Part shown: in pieces, positions 20,353 through 41,579 of the stretch
Position numbering within the stretch: the first letter of the stretch is position 1
Layout: each line of letters starts with the position of its first letter
Source: Candidatus Binatota bacterium
GTDB taxonomy: Bacteria; Desulfobacterota; Binatia; UBA1149; CAITLU01
NCBI GenBank assembly: GCA_024276575.1
Contig: JAJRWY010000189.1
Location: 1 to 41,639 of the forward strand
DNA length: 41,639 nucleotides
Reading direction: 5' to 3'
Notes under the pieces: generated by a model
What the model saw: only the letters and a program-made list of their open reading frames with translations
What the model was told of the DNA's origin: nothing
The model's database searches: none
Made by a program: the position numbers and the translations under genes

Positions 20353-20477
20353 CGTCGCGAAGACTTAGCGCCGCTTGACCACAGCCGGATCGCCGGGAAC
20401 GGGAACAAGTGGACTGCTCTCGAGTCCTCCCCTATATTCGGCACCGAGGTCGATCCACAGATGATCCGAGTTCGTCT

Positions 20478-21200
20478 ATGCAAAGCGTGAAGGGAACCCG
20501 GGCGGACGGTTCGTTCGCCCAGGCACAAGCGGTTCCTGTCGAATCGCAACGCACAGTTGCGTTTCTTGCCGATGTAGAACGCATTACAGCCACGGATTGC
20601 ACCGACTGCCGTAGACCGCTGTGTGGTCATGAGGCGGTAATTACGGTTCTGCTCGGATACAAGGAGTCTCCCTACTGCCTCTCCTGCGTCGCCCGTGCGC
20701 TTGGAGAAACACCCGCCCGGTTGCGCGCACGAGCCTGGCAGCACATCAGACGGCACGATTGTTTCATGCTCGGCTGGCGCCGTGCGAACCGGCTGGAGGG
20801 TATCGCAAATAGATCCCCGGACGACGGCGACCACGACGGCGATTCACGAGACGAGGGTGAGCCGGCCTGCCTAATGCGCCGGTACGGCGAAGAAATAGAA
20901 GAAGTAGAAGAAGTAAGCGACGGACGAGCAGTGGTGCGTGCATCCCGAACTGGTCATGCAACAACTGCCGGAACTGCGGCTTTGGACCGCGGTCACTGGG
21001 ATGCCGGCGATATGGCCTGCGGCGACCTAGTTCTCGAACTCAGACGGCGGCTCGCCAAAATGGCGCCGGGGCAACTGCTCGAACTCACCGCGTACGACAG
21101 CGCTGCAGCAGAGGACATCCCCGCGTGGTGCGGCCTCACACGCCACATACTGCTTGCCGCCGAACCTCCTGTTTACCTGATCAAGCGAAAGGAGAATTAA
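20478..21200 (+). CDS. Cys-rich (putative zinc-binding) domain plus C-terminal TusA/SirA-like domain (upstream start at 20409 possible)
   Basis: TDCTDCRRPLCG...YKESPYCLSCVA; C-terminal DAGDMACGDLVLELRRRLAKMAPGQLLELTAYDSAAAEDIPAWCGLTRHILL. Confidence 0.7.
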   Translation: MQSVKGTRADGSFAQAQAVPVESQRTVAFLADVERITATDCTDCRRPLCGHEAVITVLLGYKESPYCLSCVARALGETPARLRARAWQHIRRHDCFMLGWRRANRLEGIANRSPDDGDHDGDSRDEGEPACLMRRYGEEIEEVEEVSDGRAVVRASRTGHATTAGTAALDRGHWDAGDMACGDLVLELRRRLAKMAPGQLLELTAYDSAAAEDIPAWCGLTRHILLAAEPPVYLIKRKEN

Positions 21201-21203
21201 AAG

Positions 21204-21566
21204 ATGCCAGGAAAGTTTTGCGTTTCTTTGACCTCGGCGAAAAATGACACCGACAAGGCTACGGTTGCCTTTGTGGTGGCCAATGCCGCTCTAGGATCCG
21301 ACCAGGAAACCATCGTGTTTCTGAGCACTGAAGCCGTCAACCTGGCGGTGGCCGGATATGCCGACGACATACACGAACAAGGATTCGCTCCTCTCGAGCA
21401 GCTCATGACCGATTTCGCCGAAGGCGGAGGCAGCATCTACGTATGCTCGCCTTGCTTCAAGAAACGCGGCCTGGACGAAGGCACGCTGGTCGCCGGAGCC
21501 AAGATCGTAGGTGGCGCGAAGCTCGTGGAGTTTCTCGTCGGCGGTACGCCCAGCGTCTCCTACTAA
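21204..21566 (+). CDS. DsrE/DsrF-like family protein
   Basis: 120 aa; KATVAFVVANAALGSDQETIVFLSTEAVNLAV...GGSIYVCSPCFKKRGLDEGTLVAGAKIVGGAKLVEFL; ggag RBS upstream. Confidence 0.8.
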   Translation: MPGKFCVSLTSAKNDTDKATVAFVVANAALGSDQETIVFLSTEAVNLAVAGYADDIHEQGFAPLEQLMTDFAEGGGSIYVCSPCFKKRGLDEGTLVAGAKIVGGAKLVEFLVGGTPSVSY

Positions 21567-21569
21567 GCC

Positions 21570-23153
21570 GTGGCGGAAAGAGCGAAGCACGACTACGCGC
21601 CGGCGACGAGCTTCGACGGCGGTGAGTTGGATTGCGGGAACGGGCTACTGCTACTCATTCGCAAGCACATAGACCCGCTTGCGCGCGGACAGCTGTTGGA
21701 AATCGTCTCTCTGGAACCAACAGTGGAAGAGGAACTGCCGGCGTGGTGCCGACTTACGGGCAATGAGCTGATCTCGCTTGTAAAGCAAGGCCGGCGCATG
21801 AGCTTTCTGGTGAGCAAGGGGCCTTTCGTACCGGCGGCGACCGTGCATGAGGTGAAGCCGGGATCCGGCACCGCAGAAACCGATGCCGGCCCGGGATCGA
21901 GCAAGAGGCAGGCGCCGATAGTTCAGCCCATTGTCGAAGTAGAGATCCCCCTAAGCCTTCCGGAACCCGGGCCGGCACCCGTGATCGCGCCTCTGTCGGT
22001 CATGGGAATGGGAAGTTGGCCGCGTCCGCGCTGGATGCTACGCGCATTGCACGAACACCTCGAAGGCCGGATGAGCAGAGCAGAGTTCGAAGCAACCGCC
22101 GACGACGCCGTCAGGCTGGCGGCCGAAGCACAGCGACGCGCCGGTGTAGATGTACTGACCGACGGCGAGCAGCGTCGAGACAATTACTCAAGTTTCGTCG
22201 GCGGCTTGCTCGACAACTGCCAGCTCATTCCGATAACCGACCTATTGCCTTATGTGGACGACCCGGACGAGTTCGAGCGCGAGCTACGATCGCTCGATGT
22301 CCCCGCCGGCGAAATTCGCCACCCGGCCGTATTCGGGCGGCTCGGGCGTAGCCAAGCTCTGGCGCTGCATGAGTTCGAGTTCATGCGAAGTCTGGGCGAC
22401 GAACCGGTAAAGATCGCTCTACCCGGGCCGTACTTGTTGACACGTACGATGTGGATGGAGTGCATCTCCGATCGCGCCTACTAGACCCGCGAGGATCTGG
22501 CAGTAGACGTGGTACGCGTCTTGCGCGAGGAGCTGCACTATCTGCTGGCGGCCGGCGTCTGCCTGGTTCAATTCGACGAACCGGTGCTGACCGAGGTCGT
22601 TCATGGATCATCCAGCACCGGCGGCGGCCGCACCTTCATGTGCGGAGCACTGGGAGAGAAACGTCCCGTAGCCGAAGAACTGGCCTTTGCCGGCGATCTA
22701 CTCACCGGGTTGTTCTCGGGAATCCCGCGCGAGCGCATTGCGCTCCACGTATGCCGCGGCAACTGGACACCCGACGAAAGTGCCGCACTTGCGGGCGACT
22801 ACCGGCCGCTGCTCGACTTGCTGCGCCGTGTCCCAGCCGGCGTTTTGTTTCTCGAACTGAGCACACCGCGCGCCGGCGATATCGAAGTTCTGGCCTCCTT
22901 GCCTGAAGACATGCGAGTCGGTGTGGGTGTAATCAACCAGAAAGAACAAAGAGTAGAGACCGTCGACGAAGTTGTAGCCAAAGCCGAACGTGCGATCTCT
23001 TTATTCGGTGCCGAGCGGGTACTTCTGAACCCGGACTGCGGCTTCGCCACCTTCGCCGACAACCCTATAGTCGCAGCGGAAATTGCCGAAGCCAAGTTGT
23101 CATCCATCACTGCTGCCGCCGATCTGCTCCGCCGGCGCTTGCGACTCTCGTAA
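21570..23153 (+). CDS. N-terminal TusA-like domain fused to a cobalamin-independent methionine synthase (MetE) catalytic core, interrupted by an in-frame TAG at 22482-22484
   Basis: ORFs 21570-22484 and 22509-23153 share one frame with no indel; TusA-like LDCGNGLLLLIRKHID...EELPAWCRLTGN; MetE-like GVDVLTDGEQRRDNYSSF, LVQFDEPVL, LHVCRGNW, LLNPDCGFAT. Confidence 0.75.
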
Positions 23154-32659: not shown

Positions 32660-33307
32660 ATGGCCCAAGTCTTTAAGCCTGCCGCCAACACAATAGCGAA
32701 GTTGGCTGTCTTCGGCGGCGCCTTCTTTCTGGCGCTAGCGGTGTGGTCTCTCAATGAGTTCAATCGCTCGCAGTACATGACCCGAACCAAGGTCGCCCGC
32801 GAACAACCGGTGCCGTTCAGCCATAAACACCACAATGCCGAACTCGGCATCGACTGCCGCTATTGCCACACCTCGGTAGAAACGTCGGCATTCGCGGGGA
32901 TTCCGCCGACTCAGACCTGCATGAACTGTCATTCGCAGATCTGGAAAGACAGCCCCATGCTCGAGCCGGTAAGAGCCAGTTTCGCCAGCAACCGTTCGCT
33001 GGAATGGGTCCGCGTGCACGACCTTCCGGATTTCGTTTACTTCAACCACAGCATCCACATCCACAAGGGTATCGGCTGCGTAAGCTGCCACGGGCGCGTG
33101 GACCAGATGAATCTGACTTGGCAGCAGTCGCCGCTGCAAATGGAGTGGTGCCTGAACTGCCACCGCAACCCGGCAGCCGCCGTGCGGCCGCGAGAGGAAG
33201 TCTTCAACATGGCGTGGAAAGCCGAAAACCAAGAGGAACTCGGCGCCCGTCTCGTAAAAGCCTACAACATCGAGAGCCGAGACGACTGTTCGGTCTGTCA
33301 CCGCTAG
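32660..33307 (+). CDS. actA: Alternative complex III pentaheme cytochrome c subunit ActA
   Basis: Five CxxCH: CRYCH, CMNCH, CVSCH, CLNCH, CSVCH; single N-terminal TM; position upstream of actB. Confidence 0.9.
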   Translation: MAQVFKPAANTIAKLAVFGGAFFLALAVWSLNEFNRSQYMTRTKVAREQPVPFSHKHHNAELGIDCRYCHTSVETSAFAGIPPTQTCMNCHSQIWKDSPMLEPVRASFASNRSLEWVRVHDLPDFVYFNHSIHIHKGIGCVSCHGRVDQMNLTWQQSPLQMEWCLNCHRNPAAAVRPREEVFNMAWKAENQEELGARLVKAYNIESRDDCSVCHR

Positions 33308-33320
33308 AGCCGCTGGAGCC

Positions 33321-36300
33321 ATGCCCACACCTACCGAAGCACATCAAGTCGATATGACCGCGATCCGCCGCCGGCTACGCGAGCGCCTGGAAGCCGGCAA
33401 CGGCAAGAGCTACTGGCGAAGTCTCGACGAGCTGGCCGACAGCGACGATTTCCGGACTTTCCTCAATTCGGAATTTCCCAGTGAAGCCGAGACCTTAGTG
33501 GGATCTGTGGACCGGCGTCGTTTCCTGCAGTTGATGGGCGCCTCGCTGGCCCTGGCGGGGGTCAGCGCATGCACACGCCAGCCGGTGGAGAAAATACTAC
33601 CCTATGTAAAGGCCCCGGAAGAGATCGTGCCGGGAGAGCCCTTGTTCTTCGCCTCGGCCTACCCCTTGGCGGGGGCTGCGCAAGGAGTGTTGGTCGAAAG
33701 CCACACCGGACGGCCTACCAAGATAGAGGGCAACCCCGACCATCCCGGCAGCCTCGGCTCCAGCAACGCACTGGCTCAGGCTTCCATCCTCGACCTCTAC
33801 GACCCCGACCGCTCCCAGATCATAACCCGTGCAGGTGAAATCCGGACCTGGGAGAATTTCAGCGCGGAACTGCGTAAGGTCGCGGATTCACACAAGGAAT
33901 CCAAGGGCGAAGGACTGCACATACTGAGCAGAAGCGTCTGCTCACCAACGCTGCTTGCGGAAATCGAACAAGTTCTGAACGACATGCCGAAAGCGGCCTG
34001 GACCGTCTATGAGCCGGCCGGGCACGACCATGAACGTGAAGGCGTAAAGCTGGCGTTCGGAGACTACCGGCGCGTCCACTACGATTTTTCCAAGGCCAAG
34101 GTGGTGTTGTCGCTGGAGTCGGACTTTCTGTCTGCGGGCCCCGGGTCGGTACGCTACACGCGTGATTTCTCGGCGGCGCGGCGCGTAGAGAGCAGCCACG
34201 ACGAGATGAACCGGCTGTACGTAGTGGAAGCCCTGCCCAGCAACACCGGTGCCATGGCCGACCACAGGCTAGCGCTGAAAAGCTCGCATTTGCCAGTTTT
34301 CATTCAATCGTTGGCGGCGGAGTTGGGTCTACCGGTAGCCTCGCGTTCGGCCCTCCCGACCCATGCGCGGTGGATATCGGCGCTTGCCCGTGACCTCCGG
34401 GCCAATGCCGGTGCCTCGATCGTACTCGCAGGAGAGACTCAAGACCCCGCGGTCCATGCGGCCTGTCTGGCAATCAACGAAATGCTGGGGAACCTGGGCA
34501 AGACCGTCCTTTTCGCCGACCCCACCCCGGCCCCCCAAGGCTCGCAGAGCAAGAATCTGGCGGCCTTGGTCTCGGCCATGAAGGCCGGATCAGTTCAAAC
34601 CCTGGTAATTCTCGGCGGCAACCCGGTCTATGATACCCCGGCCGACCTCGGTTTCGCGGAGGCACTGGCCAAGGTTTCTTTCAGCCTGCATCTCTCACTT
34701 TACAACAACGAAACTTCCGAGCTGTGCCTGTGGCACGTTCCGGAAGCCCATTACCTGGAGGCCTGGGGCGACGCGCTTGCCTACGACGGTAGCGTATCGG
34801 TAGTGCAACCGTTGATCGCCCCGCTCTACGACTCCAAGAGCAGCCTCGAGTTGCTCGCTTTGATCAACGACCGGGTGGGGATGAGCGGATATGACTTGGT
34901 CCGGGATCACTGGCGCAAGCGCTATAGCGGCCCGGACTTCGAAAGTTTCTGGAAACAGAGCATCCACGACGGGATCATCGATTCGGCCGCAGTCGGAATC
35001 AGCACGAAAGCGGCGGCGCCGCCCATCCCCGGGCAGAGATGGGCGGCGGAGCTGAGCAAGGCGGCAAGTAAAGGTGCTTCCGGCGCCGGCCGCGGGCTGG
35101 AGTTGATCTTCCGGGCCGATCCTCACGTCGGTGACGGCAGTTTCGCCAACAACGGGTGGCTGCAGGAAACTCCTAAGCCAATCACCAAGCTCACGTGGGA
35201 CAATGCCGCGCTGATCAGCCCGGCCACGGCGGAATCGCTGGGTTTGGAAAACGAAGACGTGATAACCCTGAGCGTGGACACGCAAAGTGTCAACGCCCCG
35301 GTATGGATAGTTCCCGGGCAGGCCAAGGATACGGTGGCGGTGCACCTCGGATACGGACGTAGCCGCGCCGGCAAAATCGGTAACGGCCTGGGCTTCAATG
35401 CCTACAAGCTGCGTAGCAACGACGCGATGTGGACGCGGACGGAACTCAAGCTCGGAGAAACTGGAGAAAAGTACCCCCTGGCTTGCACGCAGCACCATCA
35501 CAGCATGGAAGGGCGCGAGTTGGTGCGTTCGGCAACCCTGTTCGAATACCGAGACAATCCCGGCTTCGCCACCGGCGACGACCACGGACTGGACCCGGAA
35601 GCGTCGATGTTCCCCGACCATCCCTACGAGGGCTACGCCTGGGGCATGACCATAGACTTGGCGGCCTGCACCGGCTGCAACGCCTGCTCGGTGGCTTGCC
35701 AGGCCGAGAACAACATCGCGGTGGTCGGCAAGGAAGAAGTCGCCAAGGGCCGTGAAATGTCGTGGATACGAATCGACCGTTATTTCGAAGGCGACATCGA
35801 CGAGCCCTCGGTACTTCACCAGCCGGTCAACTGCCAGCACTGCGAAAGGGCGCCTTGCGAGTTGGTCTGCCCGGTCAACGCCACCGTACACAGCGACGAG
35901 GGCATCAACGAAATGGTTTACAACCGTTGCGTAGGCACCCGTTATTGCTCGAACAACTGCCCCTACAAGGTCAGGCGTTTCAACTTCTTTCTATACTCGG
36001 ACTTCGACACCGAAGTCAGCAAGTTGCAACGCAACCCGGATGTAACCATCCGCAGCCGCGGGGTGATGGAAAAGTGCAGTTACTGCGTGCAACGCATCAA
36101 CTTGAAGAGAATAGAAGCCAAACGCGAGGACCGCAGCATACGGGACGGAGAATTGCAGACTGCTTGCCAGGCCGCCTGTCCCGCCCAGGCCATCTCCTTC
36201 GGCGACATCAACGATCCTGAAAGCAAAGTCGCAAAACTCAAGGCCAACGAGCGCAACTATGCACTACTCGGCGAGTTGGGCGTAAAACCGCGTACCACCT

Positions 36301-36383
36301 ACCTGGCCGGACTGAAAAACCCGAACCCCGAGCTGGCCGCAGAAGACGGCGGGAGTTCGCGGGCTGCTGGGGGGCATTCCTGA
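33321..36383 (+). CDS. actB: Alternative complex III subunit ActB (molybdopterin-oxidoreductase-like plus Fe-S protein fusion)
   Basis: [20 protein letters not shown] signal; [62 protein letters not shown] cluster motifs; 1020 aa. Confidence 0.92.
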
Positions 36384-37762
36384 TGGACAAGCACAGCGCC
36401 CCGGGCCCCCAAGAACCCAATGCCATGATCGGCCCCGGCCACAGTTTCAACTCGGTCACCGACAAAATCTCCTCGATCGTGTTGCGCGAAGGCGCACCGC
36501 GGGGCTGGTGGATCGGCTTCGGAATCGGTTTCGTGCTGACCAACATGATGCTGGTCTCGCTGATTTATCTGTTCGCGCGTGGGACCGGCATCTGGGGCGT
36601 CAACATCCCGGTAGGCTGGGGCTTTGCGATCATCAACTTCGTATGGTGGATCGGCATAGGACACGCCGGCACTTTGATCTCGGCCATCCTGTTGCTGCTC
36701 AGACAGGAGTGGCGAACCTCGATCAATCGCTTCGCTGAAGCGATGACCTTGTTTGCGGTAGCCTGTGCGGGAATCTTCCCGGTCATTCACACCGGGCGGC
36801 CGTGGCTGGCCTACTGGCTGTTTCCCTACCCCAACACCATGGGCCTGTGGCCGAACTTTCGCAGCCCCTTGATTTGGGACGTTTTTGCCGTCTCGACCTA
36901 CGCTTCGGTGTCGCTGCTGTTCTGGTACGTCGGCTTGATCCCCGACATGGCTACCTTGCGCGACCGCACCGTCAAGATCATCCCCAAGCGCATTTACGGC
37001 GTCTTGTCGCTGGGCTGGCGCGGCTCGGTGCGCCACTGGCACCGCTATGAAACCGCCTACTTGCTGCTGGCCGGCCTGTCTACACCGCTGGTGGTTTCAG
37101 TGCACACGATCGTAAGCTTCGATTTCGCAGTCAGCATCACCCCGGGCTGGCACGCGACTATCTTCCCGCCCTACTTCGTGGCGGGAGCGGTGTTCGCGGG
37201 TTTTGCAATGGTGTTGACCATCGCCATCCCCCTGCGCCGGGTCTACGAACTACAAGATTTCGTCACTGCCCAGCACCTTGACTACATGGCGCGGGTAATG
37301 CTGGCCACCGGTTTGATCGTGGGTTACGGCTACCTCACCGAGGCCTTCATGGCCTGGTACAGCGCCAACCCCTACGAGACTTTCATGATGAGCAACCGTA
37401 TGACCGGCCCCTACGCTCCGGTTTACTGGCTGCTGATCACCTGCAACATACTGTCTATACAGGCGCTGTGGTTCGAAAAAGTCCGAGCCACACCGATCGG
37501 ACTTTTCATCGTCGCGATGTTCGTGAACGTGGGCATGTGGTTGGAGCGCTTCATCATTGTCGCCACCAGCCTCCACCGCGATTTCTTGCCCTCTTCATGG
37601 GCCATGTACGCGGGCACCGTGTGGGATTGGAGCCTCTTTATAGGCACTCTCGGCTTCTTCGTATCGCTACTGTTCCTGTTCATACGCTTCCTGCCGATGA
37701 TCTCGATCTTTGAGATGAAAACCATGGTCCCCGAGGCCGAAGTGCGGGAGGACCTGCTATGA
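36383..37762 (+). CDS. actC: Alternative complex III NrfD-like membrane subunit ActC
   Basis: Multi-TM NrfD family: [53 protein letters not shown]. Confidence 0.9.
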
Positions 37763-38307
37763 GTGAGAACAGCAACGAGCAGCCCATCTACGGACTGTTG
37801 GCGGAGTTCTCCAGCGCGGGAGAGCTTGTCACGGCGACACGCGCGGCGCGCAAAGCCGGCTTCACCAAGATCGACGCCTACAGCCCCTTGCCGCTCGAAG
37901 AACTGTTCGAGGCCTTGGGGCTTCACAAAAGCCGCCTGCCATTGATCGTCTTGATCGGCGGCATCGTCGGCGCATGCGCGGGTTACGGGTTGGCCTACTG
38001 GACCTCGGTCATCGACTACCCCATCAACGTCGGCGGGCGCCCTTTCCACAGTTGGCCGGCATTTATACCCATTACTTTTGAAACGACAGTGTTGTTCGCG
38101 GCTTTCTCGGCGGTGCTCGGGATGCTCGCCCTAAACGGCCTGCCGCAGCTTTACCACCCGGTGTTCAACGTCAGCCGCTTCGCGGTTGCCTCCAAGGATC
38201 GCTTCTTTCTGTTGATCGAAGCCGTGGATCCGGAGTTCGACTACGACAAGACGTGGAGCTTCCTCACCAAGCTCGAGCCTCGGGTAATCTCGGACGTGGA
38301 GCACTAG
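37759..38307 (+). CDS. actD: Alternative complex III subunit ActD (DUF3341)
   Basis: IYGLLAEFSSAGELVTATRAARKAGFTKIDAYSPLPLEEL; YPINVGGRPFHSWPAFIPITFETTVL. Confidence 0.9.
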   Translation: MSENSNEQPIYGLLAEFSSAGELVTATRAARKAGFTKIDAYSPLPLEELFEALGLHKSRLPLIVLIGGIVGACAGYGLAYWTSVIDYPINVGGRPFHSWPAFIPITFETTVLFAAFSAVLGMLALNGLPQLYHPVFNVSRFAVASKDRFFLLIEAVDPEFDYDKTWSFLTKLEPRVISDVEH

Positions 38308-38313
38308 AACTAG

Positions 38314-38964
38314 ATGCGCGCCCTACGCTTTGCACTACTGATTGTAGCCGTGTTGCTGGCGTCGGCATGTCGCCAAGACATGCACGATGCGCCGCGCTAC
38401 GAGCCACTGGAATACAGTGTCTTCTTCGACGACCATCGCGCAGCCCGTCCGGCGGTGGAGAATACCGTCTCGCGCAGCGCTTTCGGGGAAAGCCCACTTT
38501 TGCTGCAGGCGAGAAGAGACGGACGATTCGTGAAGGTTTTCCCCTTCGAAATCGACGAAGCGGTTATCCGCCGGGGCCAAGAGCGTTACAATATCTACTG
38601 CTCGCCTTGCCACGCGCGTACGGGGCTCGGAGACGGGATGATAGTGCGGCGCGGCTACCCGCAGCCCCCCTCTTTCCACGACCAGAGGCTCAAAGAAGCC
38701 GCGCCCGGGTACTTTTTTCATGTAATCACCAACGGCTTCGGAGTGATGCCGTCTTACGCGGCGCAAGTTCCGCTGCGCGACCGCTGGGCTATCACCGCCT
38801 ACATTCGCGCTCTGCAGTTGAGCCGCAGCACCCAGGTCTCGAGTTTGGATAGTTCGGAAAAGAGCAAAATAGGCAAAGGCGACGTACGTGAGCCCAAAGC
38901 GGGCCATGGCGGACACGGGAACAACGCGGGACACGGCGAGTCCGGGGAGGCCTCCCATGGCTAA
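38314..38964 (+). CDS. actE: Alternative complex III monoheme cytochrome c ActE with His/Gly-rich C-terminus
   Basis: Lipobox-like LLASAC; RYNIYCSPCHARTGLGDGMIV; tail KAGHGGHGNNAGHGESGEASHG. Confidence 0.88.
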   Translation: MRALRFALLIVAVLLASACRQDMHDAPRYEPLEYSVFFDDHRAARPAVENTVSRSAFGESPLLLQARRDGRFVKVFPFEIDEAVIRRGQERYNIYCSPCHARTGLGDGMIVRRGYPQPPSFHDQRLKEAAPGYFFHVITNGFGVMPSYAAQVPLRDRWAITAYIRALQLSRSTQVSSLDSSEKSKIGKGDVREPKAGHGGHGNNAGHGESGEASHG

Positions 38965-40162
38965 GGCTAAACTCGACCGCTCGGCCTTCATGCTACCCGC
39001 CGGCCATCACCTCCACAGCGTACAGCGTATTGCGTTGATCGTCGGTATCGTCGCGGCAGGACTGACCGCTTTCGGGGCGATGTCGAACCCGGTCCAGTTC
39101 TTTCGTTCTTATCTGGTGGCCTACCTTTACTGTCTGGCTCTAGGATTGGGGAGCTTGGGCATCCTGCTGCTCCACCATGTGGTCGGCGGACGCTGGGGCT
39201 CGATACTGCGCAAATTTCTGGAAGCCGGCTCACGCACACTTCCGATGCTGGCCCTGGCCTTCGTACCGCTGCTGTTCGGCATGCATGAGTTGTACGAATG
39301 GAGCCATGCCGATGCGGTGGCTCACGATCCGGTCATCGCCCACAAGAGCCTCTACCTCAACAGCACCTTCTTCACGGTACGCGCCGCGGTGTACTTCCTG
39401 GTATGGATCACCCTGGCGACGCTGGCCTCACGTTGGTCCGCAGCTCAAGAAGAGGGCGGTGGCCCCGCGGTCAATAAGCGCCTGGAGTTTCTCGGGCGTG
39501 GCGGCACAATTCTTTATGCCGGCACCATGACCTTCGCCGCCATCGATTGGGTCATGTCGATCGACGTCCACTGGTTCTCGCATATCTACGGGCTGATCTT
39601 CGTGGCCGGACAGGTGCTGACCGCCATGGCTTTTATGGTGGTGGTAGCCTCTTCGTTCGCGGGGCGGGCACCTTTCGAACGCATTATGTGCGCGGACCGC
39701 TTCCACGATCTCGGCAAGCTGATGCTGGCCTTCATCATGGTCTGGGCCTACTTCGCATTGTCACAGTATCTGATCATCTGGTCGGGCAACCTCCCCGAAG
39801 AGACCCCGTGGTACATCAGCCGCTTGAGCGGCGGCTGGGAGCATTTCGGCAGCGCACTCATTATTTTTCATTTCGTGCTTCCCTTCGTGGTGCTGCTCTC
39901 ACGCGACGTCAAGCGCAACCCACGAAGCCTGGCATTGGTGGCCTGCGCCTTGTTGGTGTTCCGTTACATGGATCTTTACTGGCTGGTGGTGCCTTCGTTC
40001 TCGCCCGGCGTTTTCACCCTACACTGGTTAGATTTTTCAGCCATGGCGGCGCTCGGTGGTCTGTGGATCGCTTTGTTCGTACAGCAGATCAAAGGACATA
40101 CGCTATTGCCCTTGGGCGATCCCATGCTGGCCCCTGAACTGGCCGAGGGGGCTGAGTCGTGA
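38957..40162 (+). CDS. actF: Alternative complex III membrane subunit ActF (overlaps the actE 3' end by 8 bp)
   Basis: ATGGCTAA overlap; HHVVGGRWGSILRKFLEAGSRTLPMLALAFVPLLFG; NSTFFTVRAAVYFLVWITLA. Confidence 0.88.
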   Translation: MAKAKLDRSAFMLPAGHHLHSVQRIALIVGIVAAGLTAFGAMSNPVQFFRSYLVAYLYCLALGLGSLGILLLHHVVGGRWGSILRKFLEAGSRTLPMLALAFVPLLFGMHELYEWSHADAVAHDPVIAHKSLYLNSTFFTVRAAVYFLVWITLATLASRWSAAQEEGGGPAVNKRLEFLGRGGTILYAGTMTFAAIDWVMSIDVHWFSHIYGLIFVAGQVLTAMAFMVVVASSFAGRAPFERIMCADRFHDLGKLMLAFIMVWAYFALSQYLIIWSGNLPEETPWYISRLSGGWEHFGSALIIFHFVLPFVVLLSRDVKRNPRSLALVACALLVFRYMDLYWLVVPSFSPGVFTLHWLDFSAMAALGGLWIALFVQQIKGHTLLPLGDPMLAPELAEGAES

Positions 40163-40719
40163 GCGAGCAAGAGATGAGCGGACACGGTCAGATAAGCTAC
40201 GAAGGCAAGGATCTTCGCTTCCGCCCCATCGTTTGGGCCTCCATAGGGTTGGCACTGATCACTCTGGTTTTCTGCGCCTTGATGTGGGTTTTCTTTGCCT
40301 TCCTGTCGGCCCGTGAAGCTTCGCAGAGCCCGGCGCCCAATCCTTTGGCCGCCGCCGAGGCCCGCACCGAACCTCCTTCTCCACGCCTGCTGGTCGACCC
40401 GGTAGCCTCCTACCACGAGTTCAAGCAACAGGAAGAAGTACTGCTGAACTCTTACGGTTGGGTGGATAAAGAAGCAGGATTGGTTCACGTCCCCATCGAA
40501 AGAGCCATCAAGACACTTGCCGCCCAGGGACTTCCTTCCTACGACGCCGCCGCCGAACGAGAACGCGCCCGCAACGAGGCCGCCGCTTCGAACGGTGCTA
40601 ATGCAGCAGCAGCAGCGGGCACCGCAGCGCAGGGTTCCGCAACGCAGGGTGTGGCGCCCGCGGGCACGGGCACGGGAAGCGGCCAAGCCGCCGGACGGCA
40701 GGAGCACGGCGGACGTTGA
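40159..40719 (+). CDS. Single-TM protein of the ACIII/SCO locus, Ala/Gly/Gln-rich C-terminus, function unknown
   Basis: GTGA overlap with actF; TM IVWASIGLALITLVFCALMWVFFAF; LLNSYGWVDKEAGLVHVPIERAIKTLAAQG. Confidence 0.7.
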   Translation: MSEQEMSGHGQISYEGKDLRFRPIVWASIGLALITLVFCALMWVFFAFLSAREASQSPAPNPLAAAEARTEPPSPRLLVDPVASYHEFKQQEEVLLNSYGWVDKEAGLVHVPIERAIKTLAAQGLPSYDAAAERERARNEAAASNGANAAAAAGTAAQGSATQGVAPAGTGTGSGQAAGRQEHGGR

Positions 40720-41579
40720 TCACTCGCTCACCAATACTCGCCGGCGCAGCGTTTTTGACGCTGGCCGTGTTGACACCCTCTGCTTTGAGAGCCGGAGGCG
40801 CGCCCTCGGTTGCGCCGGGCGGTGCGGGGCTGGCGGCAAGCGTGGCGCCTGAACCGCTGAGCGGAGTGGATATCAAGGCTAGGCTCGGAGAGCAGGTTCC
40901 CTTGGCTCTGCCCTTTCGCGACGAAGAAGGCCGCGACGTGGCGCTCGGGGATTATTTCGGCAAACGCCCGGTAGTGCTTGCACTAGTCTACTACGAATGC
41001 CCGATGCTGTGTACGCTGGTGCTCAACGGATTGGTAAAAGCGCTGCGGCCGCTGACTTTCGAACCGGGAAAGGAATTCGAAGTGGTGGTCGTGAGCTTCG
41101 ATCCCGGCGAAGGCCCGGAACTGGCCGCGTCGAAGAAGAAAATCTACCTCGACAGTTACAAACGTCCGCAAACCGCCGGGGGCTGGCACTTCTTGACCGG
41201 GTCCCAAGAATCGATCAAGAACCTAACGGCTTCGGTGGGATTCTCCTACCGTTATCTCGAGCGCACCGACGAGTACGCCCACTCAGTGGCCCTGATGCTG
41301 CTGACGCCTAAGGGCATACTCGCGCGCTACTACTACGGAATCGAGTACTCCACGCGAGACTTGAAACTGGGAATCATCGAGGCCTCGAACGAAAAGATAG
41401 CCTCAACGGTAGACAAACTATTGCTGTACTGTTTCCGCTACGACCCCTCGACCGGACGTTATTCAGCCGTCGTGCTGAACATCATCCGTTTAGGGGGCAT
41501 CATCACGGTAGCGGCACTGGTTGGCTTCGTTTTGGTGATGCGCCGTCGCGACAAGCGGCGGTCCAAGGCAGGTAGCTGA
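40716..41579 (+). CDS. SCO1/SenC copper chaperone family protein (probable TTG start overlapping the upstream stop)
   Basis: VVLALVYYECPMLCTLVLNGL (CxxxC), VVSFDPGEGPELA, C-terminal TM LGGIITVAALVGFVLVM. Confidence 0.88.
   Translation: MITRSPILAGAAFLTLAVLTPSALRAGGAPSVAPGGAGLAASVAPEPLSGVDIKARLGEQVPLALPFRDEEGRDVALGDYFGKRPVVLALVYYECPMLCTLVLNGLVKALRPLTFEPGKEFEVVVVSFDPGEGPELAASKKKIYLDSYKRPQTAGGWHFLTGSQESIKNLTASVGFSYRYLERTDEYAHSVALMLLTPKGILARYYYGIEYSTRDLKLGIIEASNEKIASTVDKLLLYCFRYDPSTGRYSAVVLNIIRLGGIITVAALVGFVLVMRRRDKRRSKAGS

Follow-up and report, generated by a model that had tools for sequence, protein, structure and literature searches.

A conserved TusA-DsrE-MetE operon found almost only in genomes with selenium genes, and its possible role in a chalcogen relay

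Genes of the TusA-DsrE-MetE locus

The window analyzed here is a stretch of 41,639 nucleotides from a Candidatus Binatota bacterium (contig JAJRWY010000189.1). Three genes follow one another on its + strand, with 3-nt gaps between genes 1 and 2 and between genes 2 and 3, an arrangement reported in a preliminary description of the sequence and borne out by the positions of the open reading frames. Gene 1 (20409..21200, + strand) encodes a cysteine-rich CxxC..CxxC domain and a TusA-like domain with CG and PAWC motifs; its start is ambiguous, with a GTG at 20409 and an ATG at 20478. Gene 2 (21204..21566, + strand) encodes a DsrE-family protein with a CSPC motif, and gene 3 (21570..23153, + strand) encodes a TusA-like domain fused to a MetE catalytic core, the frame of which is interrupted by a TAG codon. 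The profile HMM searches that had been suggested as a check placed all three genes over the Pfam cut-offs: 36.1 bits to TusA (PF01206, cut-off 28.6) for gene 1, 53.9 bits to DsrE (PF02635, cut-off 22.7) for gene 2 and 92.9 bits to Meth_synt_2 (PF01717, cut-off 21) for gene 3. The TusA-like segment of gene 3 scored 27.7 bits as a protein, under the cut-off of 28.6, and 31.5 bits, over it, in the genome scan.

The CxxC domain of gene 1 is also present in the homologues of loci L051, L011 and L108 and of the unfused loci described below. The CSPC motif of gene 2 was kept across the DsrE homologues that were read, and the protein is 68-69% identical to the copies on the Paracoccus megaplasmids; it is not a TusD equivalog (TIGR03012, 12.6 bits against a cut-off of 89). 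The persulfide cysteine of the two TusA-like domains does not lie in a CPxP motif, but in CGD in gene 1 and in CGN in gene 3, where the residue (Cys22; 21633..21635, + strand) is kept in 82 of 83 fused cores. The replacement of CP by CG, pointed out earlier, therefore stands. The (I/L)PAWC motif, also pointed out earlier, matches a cysteine that ordinary TusA already has, as in DIPGFC of E. coli TusA.

A long, possibly DmdC-like acyl-CoA dehydrogenase (ACAD) gene and cysE had been offered as sulfur context for the three genes. Both lie on the opposite strand and were not conspicuous as conserved neighbours in relatives, and we have not retained them. Elsewhere in the window, positions 32660-41579 appear to hold a run of genes like those of alternative complex III (a multihaem cytochrome, a molybdopterin-like/FeS protein, NrfD-like membrane proteins and a cytochrome c), after which a putative SCO1-like protein is encoded.

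The preliminary description treated gene 3 as one open frame. There is, however, a TAG at codon 305 (SDRAY*TRED; 22482..22484, + strand), found at this site only in the window copy. Relatives have no stop there and carry variable residues, which were D or A in those read first. Since TAG is the ordinary stop of 9 of the 29 genes in the window and the residue is not conserved, recoding of this codon, as pyrrolysine or otherwise, is unlikely; selenocysteine in the window module was also rejected, as no TGA lies in frame. The uninterrupted relatives and the normal use of TAG elsewhere in the window suggest that the window copy of gene 3 is either damaged or mis-sequenced. Decay of the whole module into a pseudogene in this genome would account for the TAG and is given somewhat less than an even chance, considering that gene 3 is intact outside the TAG, active-site residues included, that its two partner genes are undamaged as well, and that a base error is possible because the assembly is a draft of 321 contigs. 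Decay would concern the window copy only and is compatible with every functional reading discussed below. Another amber-interrupted fusion gene was seen in a Planctomycetota MAG (L072:11658-11660), with the TAG at a conserved DEP motif.

Conservation, variants and neighbours of the module

The fusion was found at full length, with 68-71% identity, in 7 other Binatia genomes, and 228 GTDB genomes encode a relative of it, so that the fusion itself, as opposed to its single open frame in the window, was correctly described. We compared the best 80 of the 228 GTDB stretches together with two Paracoccus megaplasmids, giving 82 fusion loci. The hosts among those best 80 were Binatia, Beta-, Alpha- and other Proteobacteria, Planctomycetota and Actinomycetota, along with Myxococcota, Verrucomicrobiota, Acidobacteriota and Rokubacteria. 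A dsrE gene adjoins the fusion in 78 of the 82 fetched loci, usually in the order TusA-DsrE-fusion; of the four loci that lack it, two (L081 and L088) lie at contig ends. In about 70 of the 82, a TusA-like or CxxC-TusA gene separate from the fusion is present as well. The fused cores form a single clade (SH-aLRT 100), which points to one origin. MetE cores are thus linked or fused to TusA and DsrE across many phyla, and on these comparisons the module is real and conserved and not the coincidence that the preliminary description had allowed for. It is apparently also undescribed: we found no published description of TusA, DsrE and a methionine synthase together with such a fusion, in a literature whose coverage excluded most subscription papers.

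Two other arrangements of the core were observed. In an unfused version from Planctomycetota, a separate MetE core (42-49% identical) is accompanied by a transglutaminase-like protein, a CxxC-TusA protein, a DsrE protein and a TusA-OsmC fusion; no paper on the TusA/OsmC/DsrE/transglutaminase set was found within the same coverage. Solo cores, in Planctomycetota and Binatia, are without TusA or DsrE, and their neighbours in the Planctomycetota loci that were read are a cytosolic PhnD-like binding protein, an ACAD-like flavoprotein or an OsmC protein. Solo cores beside a cytosolic PhnD-like protein and an ACAD-like flavoprotein are seen at L128:6400-9540, L130:8116-9396 (also with an OsmC protein) and L133:3548-9076 (also with a Cys/Met PLP enzyme). 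These loci recall Rv1679-Rv1680-Rv1681 of M. tuberculosis (NF049984, NF049985, NF049973), with its TusA-like N-terminus, PhnD-like protein and ACAD, but the latter set has a radical SAM partner and no MetE core; no paper on Rv1679-Rv1681 was found, again with most subscription papers outside coverage. A distant TusA-DsrE pair without a MetE core, its DsrE 37% identical, adjoins a DUF4242 (SCO4226-like) gene on plasmid pNOCA01 of Nocardioides sp. JS614 (L037:9080-10366).

Several further genes recur at the fusion loci. PhnD/PhnE-like genes were present at the module in 17 loci, mostly betaproteobacterial, and usually came with an ABC ATPase. Ten loci encode an exported protein of ~520 residues (Exp524), usually together with a small cysteine-bearing membrane protein (Mem); L036:10365-12449 and its relatives are an example of the two within the operon. 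Exp524 had no Pfam or NCBIfam match, and its AlphaFold model was poor (pLDDT 48). In eight Binatia loci the genes metY-metX-metW, named from sequence and not by profile search, lie divergently next to the DsrE-fusion genes, and one solo-core locus has a PLP enzyme related to this set. The adjacency of metY-metX-metW ties the core to homocysteine. The PhnCDE-type, OsmC and transglutaminase partners were absent from the preliminary description, as were the TAG of gene 3, the additional cysteine with its UGA variant and the selenium association, which are described below.

The MetE-type core and its additional cysteine

Gene 3 does not encode a folate-dependent MetE (TIGR01371, 66 versus 930 bits), and the N-terminal half that forms the folate domain is absent. 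By score it is not MesD either, with 107 versus 392 bits to NF006589 (PRK09121), which we take to be the MesD-type model. Alignment to MetE and MesD structures and to 103 cores showed that the zinc ligands H-C-E-C are conserved, as H393, C395, E429 and C490 in the window protein. The HxC motif that contains the first two (22746..22754, + strand) corresponds by structure alignment to the zinc ligands H641 and C643 of E. coli MetE and is invariant in the 103 cores. The homocysteine-contacting residues S433, E484 and D599 of E. coli are likewise conserved, as S149, E200 and D336 (for the roles of the zinc and homocysteine residues of MetE see PMC7857596). When the structure of the Duganella fusion was modelled (pLDDT 78.5), its best fold match was MesD with selenomethionine (3RPD; E 7.6e-21, TM 0.81 by target). 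The intact zinc and homocysteine sites fit methyl transfer to homocysteine, and with the metY-metX-metW genes of the eight Binatia loci they lend some substance to the earlier suggestion of folate-independent methionine synthesis or alkyl transfer.

The core resembles MesD and the other core methionine synthases in having a MetE core without a folate domain, H-C-E-C zinc ligands and S/E/D homocysteine residues, and MesD is aerobic and corrinoid-independent (PMC7857596). It differs from MesD in the TusA and DsrE proteins that are fused or linked to it, in the lack of MesX among the neighbours seen, in an extra FMC(G/A) cysteine or selenocysteine and in its selenium association. One could suppose that the operon encodes a MesD-like enzyme, the fifth kind of methionine synthase to work without folate, which would take its methyl group from a donor outside chalcogen chemistry and use TusA and DsrE as redox partners. 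The nearest fold, the conserved homocysteine pocket, the metX/metY linkage and the window genome, in which no other MetE-type core was found, would all suit such an enzyme. We nevertheless regard it as quite unlikely, given that no MesX (DUF1852) was seen among the neighbours at the loci examined, that its regular partners are carriers of chalcogen and that selenium genes occur in 43 of the 44 fusion genomes tested.

The extra cysteine, C358 (FMCGAL; 22641..22643, + strand), lies in an FMC(G/A) motif and is the only additional cysteine that is invariant in all three groups of cores (fused, unfused and solo); it is absent from the outgroup paralogues. In two sister Planctomycetota, L122 (genome G531) and L123 (genome G663), a TGA stands exactly at this codon (L122:8048 and L123:7142), after which the frame resumes as a normal core, which makes the cores a candidate new selenoprotein family. 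SelA is present in both genomes; SelD was detected in G531 and not in G663. About 26 nt 3' of the UGA, both have a GCCC-GGA-GGGC hairpin that is absent from the cysteine homologues compared, and this SECIS-like hairpin folds hardly better than shuffled sequences (z of -0.5 and -1.1). The UGA at an invariant cysteine, the presence of SelA and the hairpin downstream indicate that the position is probably selenocysteine, and, L122 and L123 being sisters, the change from cysteine probably represents one event. A UGA at C358 also marks a residue with a likely catalytic or nucleophilic role, but is in itself no proof of a selenium-containing substrate. No MetE-type member appears in a list of prokaryotic selenoproteins from 2026 (PMC13188914).

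Thiol and selenol ligands might also bind a metal, and the system could then detoxify or demethylate organometals or metalloids, mercury or arsenic for instance. The cysteine-rich proteins, the selenocysteine variant and the small cysteine-bearing Mem would be in keeping with this, and a part in heavy-metal handling is ascribed to Sao-type selenocysteine proteins (PMC13188914). This explanation appears very improbable, however: inspection of the neighbourhoods showed no recognisable mer or ars genes, Mem has no Pfam match to the Mer families, the DsrE protein of gene 2 has no match to the Sao model, and the homocysteine pocket is left unexplained.

Selenium co-occurrence and a possible chalcogen relay

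The module is almost confined to genomes that have SelD, SelA or both. SelD passed its cut-off in 42 of the 44 fusion genomes tested, SelA was found in 39 and one or other of the two in 43, the one genome with neither being G083, of the Obscuribacterales. Phylogeny was controlled in part by comparison within groups. In Micrococcaceae, SelD was found in 6/6 fusion genomes against 52/193 (p 5e-4), and in Planctomycetota in 43/45 genomes bearing a fused, unfused or solo core against 185/301 (p 6e-7), with 14/15 for the fused tier alone (p 0.015), all by Fisher tests that ignore shared ancestry. Burkholderiaceae showed no enrichment (SelD 7/7 against 161/189, SelA 3/7 against 58/189), and are uninformative as a test since their SelD background is high (86%); SelD is also common in Binatia. 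Selenium genes lie near the module in two lineages only. In Paracoccus, selA and trxB are directly downstream of the fusion with selB nearby, and in a Verrucomicrobia MAG the module is followed by selB, selA and an oxidoreductase-SelD fusion. The SelD gene of the window genome (G000:C166:286-1212) has one TGA in frame and probably encodes a selenocysteine-containing SelD.

A function confined to sulfur would fit TusA and DsrE, which are classically sulfur carriers: the carriers and the MetE core would process methylthio or other organosulfur compounds, or pass sulfur from TusA to MetY, and selenium users would merely share the habitat. The metY-metX-metW genes next door, the SufS-type cysteine desulfurase gene that neighbours the operon in Paracoccus, the Obscuribacterales genome without SelD and SelA and the Burkholderiaceae without enrichment can all be read in this way. 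We think it somewhat unlikely, because a selenium gene is present in 43 of 44 fusion genomes, selA-trxB lies within the Paracoccus operon and UGA replaces the C358 codon in two genomes.

The reading that we tentatively prefer, at rather less than even confidence, is that the operon is a relay for chalcogen (selenium, possibly sulfur) whose central enzyme, a MetE-type methyltransferase independent of folate and corrinoid, would transfer a methyl group from methylated selenium (or sulfur) to homocysteine while TusA and DsrE remove the chalcogen. From the parts of the operon we infer its substrate, the direction of transfer, the acceptor and the role of each carrier as follows. The homocysteine and zinc sites suggest that the methyl acceptor binds at the core, TusA and DsrE that chalcogen arrives or leaves as a protein-bound persulfide or perselenide, and the PhnD-type protein that a small oxyanion, for example a methylated selenium oxyanion, may be taken up. 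The substrate would be a methylated compound of selenium or sulfur. It might be an oxyanion resembling methylseleninate that enters through the PhnCDE-type transporter, or it might be methylselenol of intracellular origin. It would be reduced and then captured on TusA, on DsrE or on C358 or its selenocysteine counterpart, whereupon the zinc site would move the methyl group to homocysteine to give methionine. Transfer would thus pass through TusA-bound chalcogen, and the demethylated chalcogen would exit as a TusA- or DsrE-bound persulfide or perselenide that could feed SelD. The near restriction of the operon to selenium users and the apparent selenocysteine in the enzyme of two genomes suggest that the relay may serve to regain selenium, or sulfur, from compounds that carry it in methylated form.

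Two known systems offer comparisons. Type 1 mlp clusters of anaerobes have been proposed to demethylate methylselenol or dimethylselenide by zinc methyltransferases with thiolate sites, and share with the present operon a strong co-occurrence with the selenocysteine machinery (PMC10418091). They use UROD-family proteins with a corrinoid protein and an activase, whereas here a MetE-family core is joined to TusA and DsrE, and neither a corrinoid protein nor a reductive activase was seen among the conserved neighbours of the module. YedF, a selenium-linked TusA-DsrE protein (PMC5322559), resembles the operon in its TusA-like and DsrE-like parts and their tie to SelD; unlike YedF, the parts are here encoded by separate genes, have CG in place of CPxP and are joined to a methyltransferase.

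A more specific form of the chalcogen relay, which we put forward as somewhat doubtful, is an aerobic, corrinoid-free acquisition or recycling of methylated selenium, in which the MetE-fold enzyme, a selenoprotein in some Planctomycetota, would demethylate methyl-selenium onto homocysteine and the selenium would pass by way of the fused TusA and DsrE to SelD. The selenium supply of aerobic bacteria is poorly known, and according to a 2026 review prokaryotes have so far yielded no specific, high-affinity system for selenium uptake (PMC13188914). Present in 228 sampled genomes, an operon that tracks selenium users and unites chalcogen carriers with a methyltransferase core, and in many cases with a PhnCDE-type importer, is a candidate selenium-acquisition system. 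If this is true, the selenoproteome would gain a MetE-fold member, and the enzymes resembling core methionine synthases would gain a further kind.
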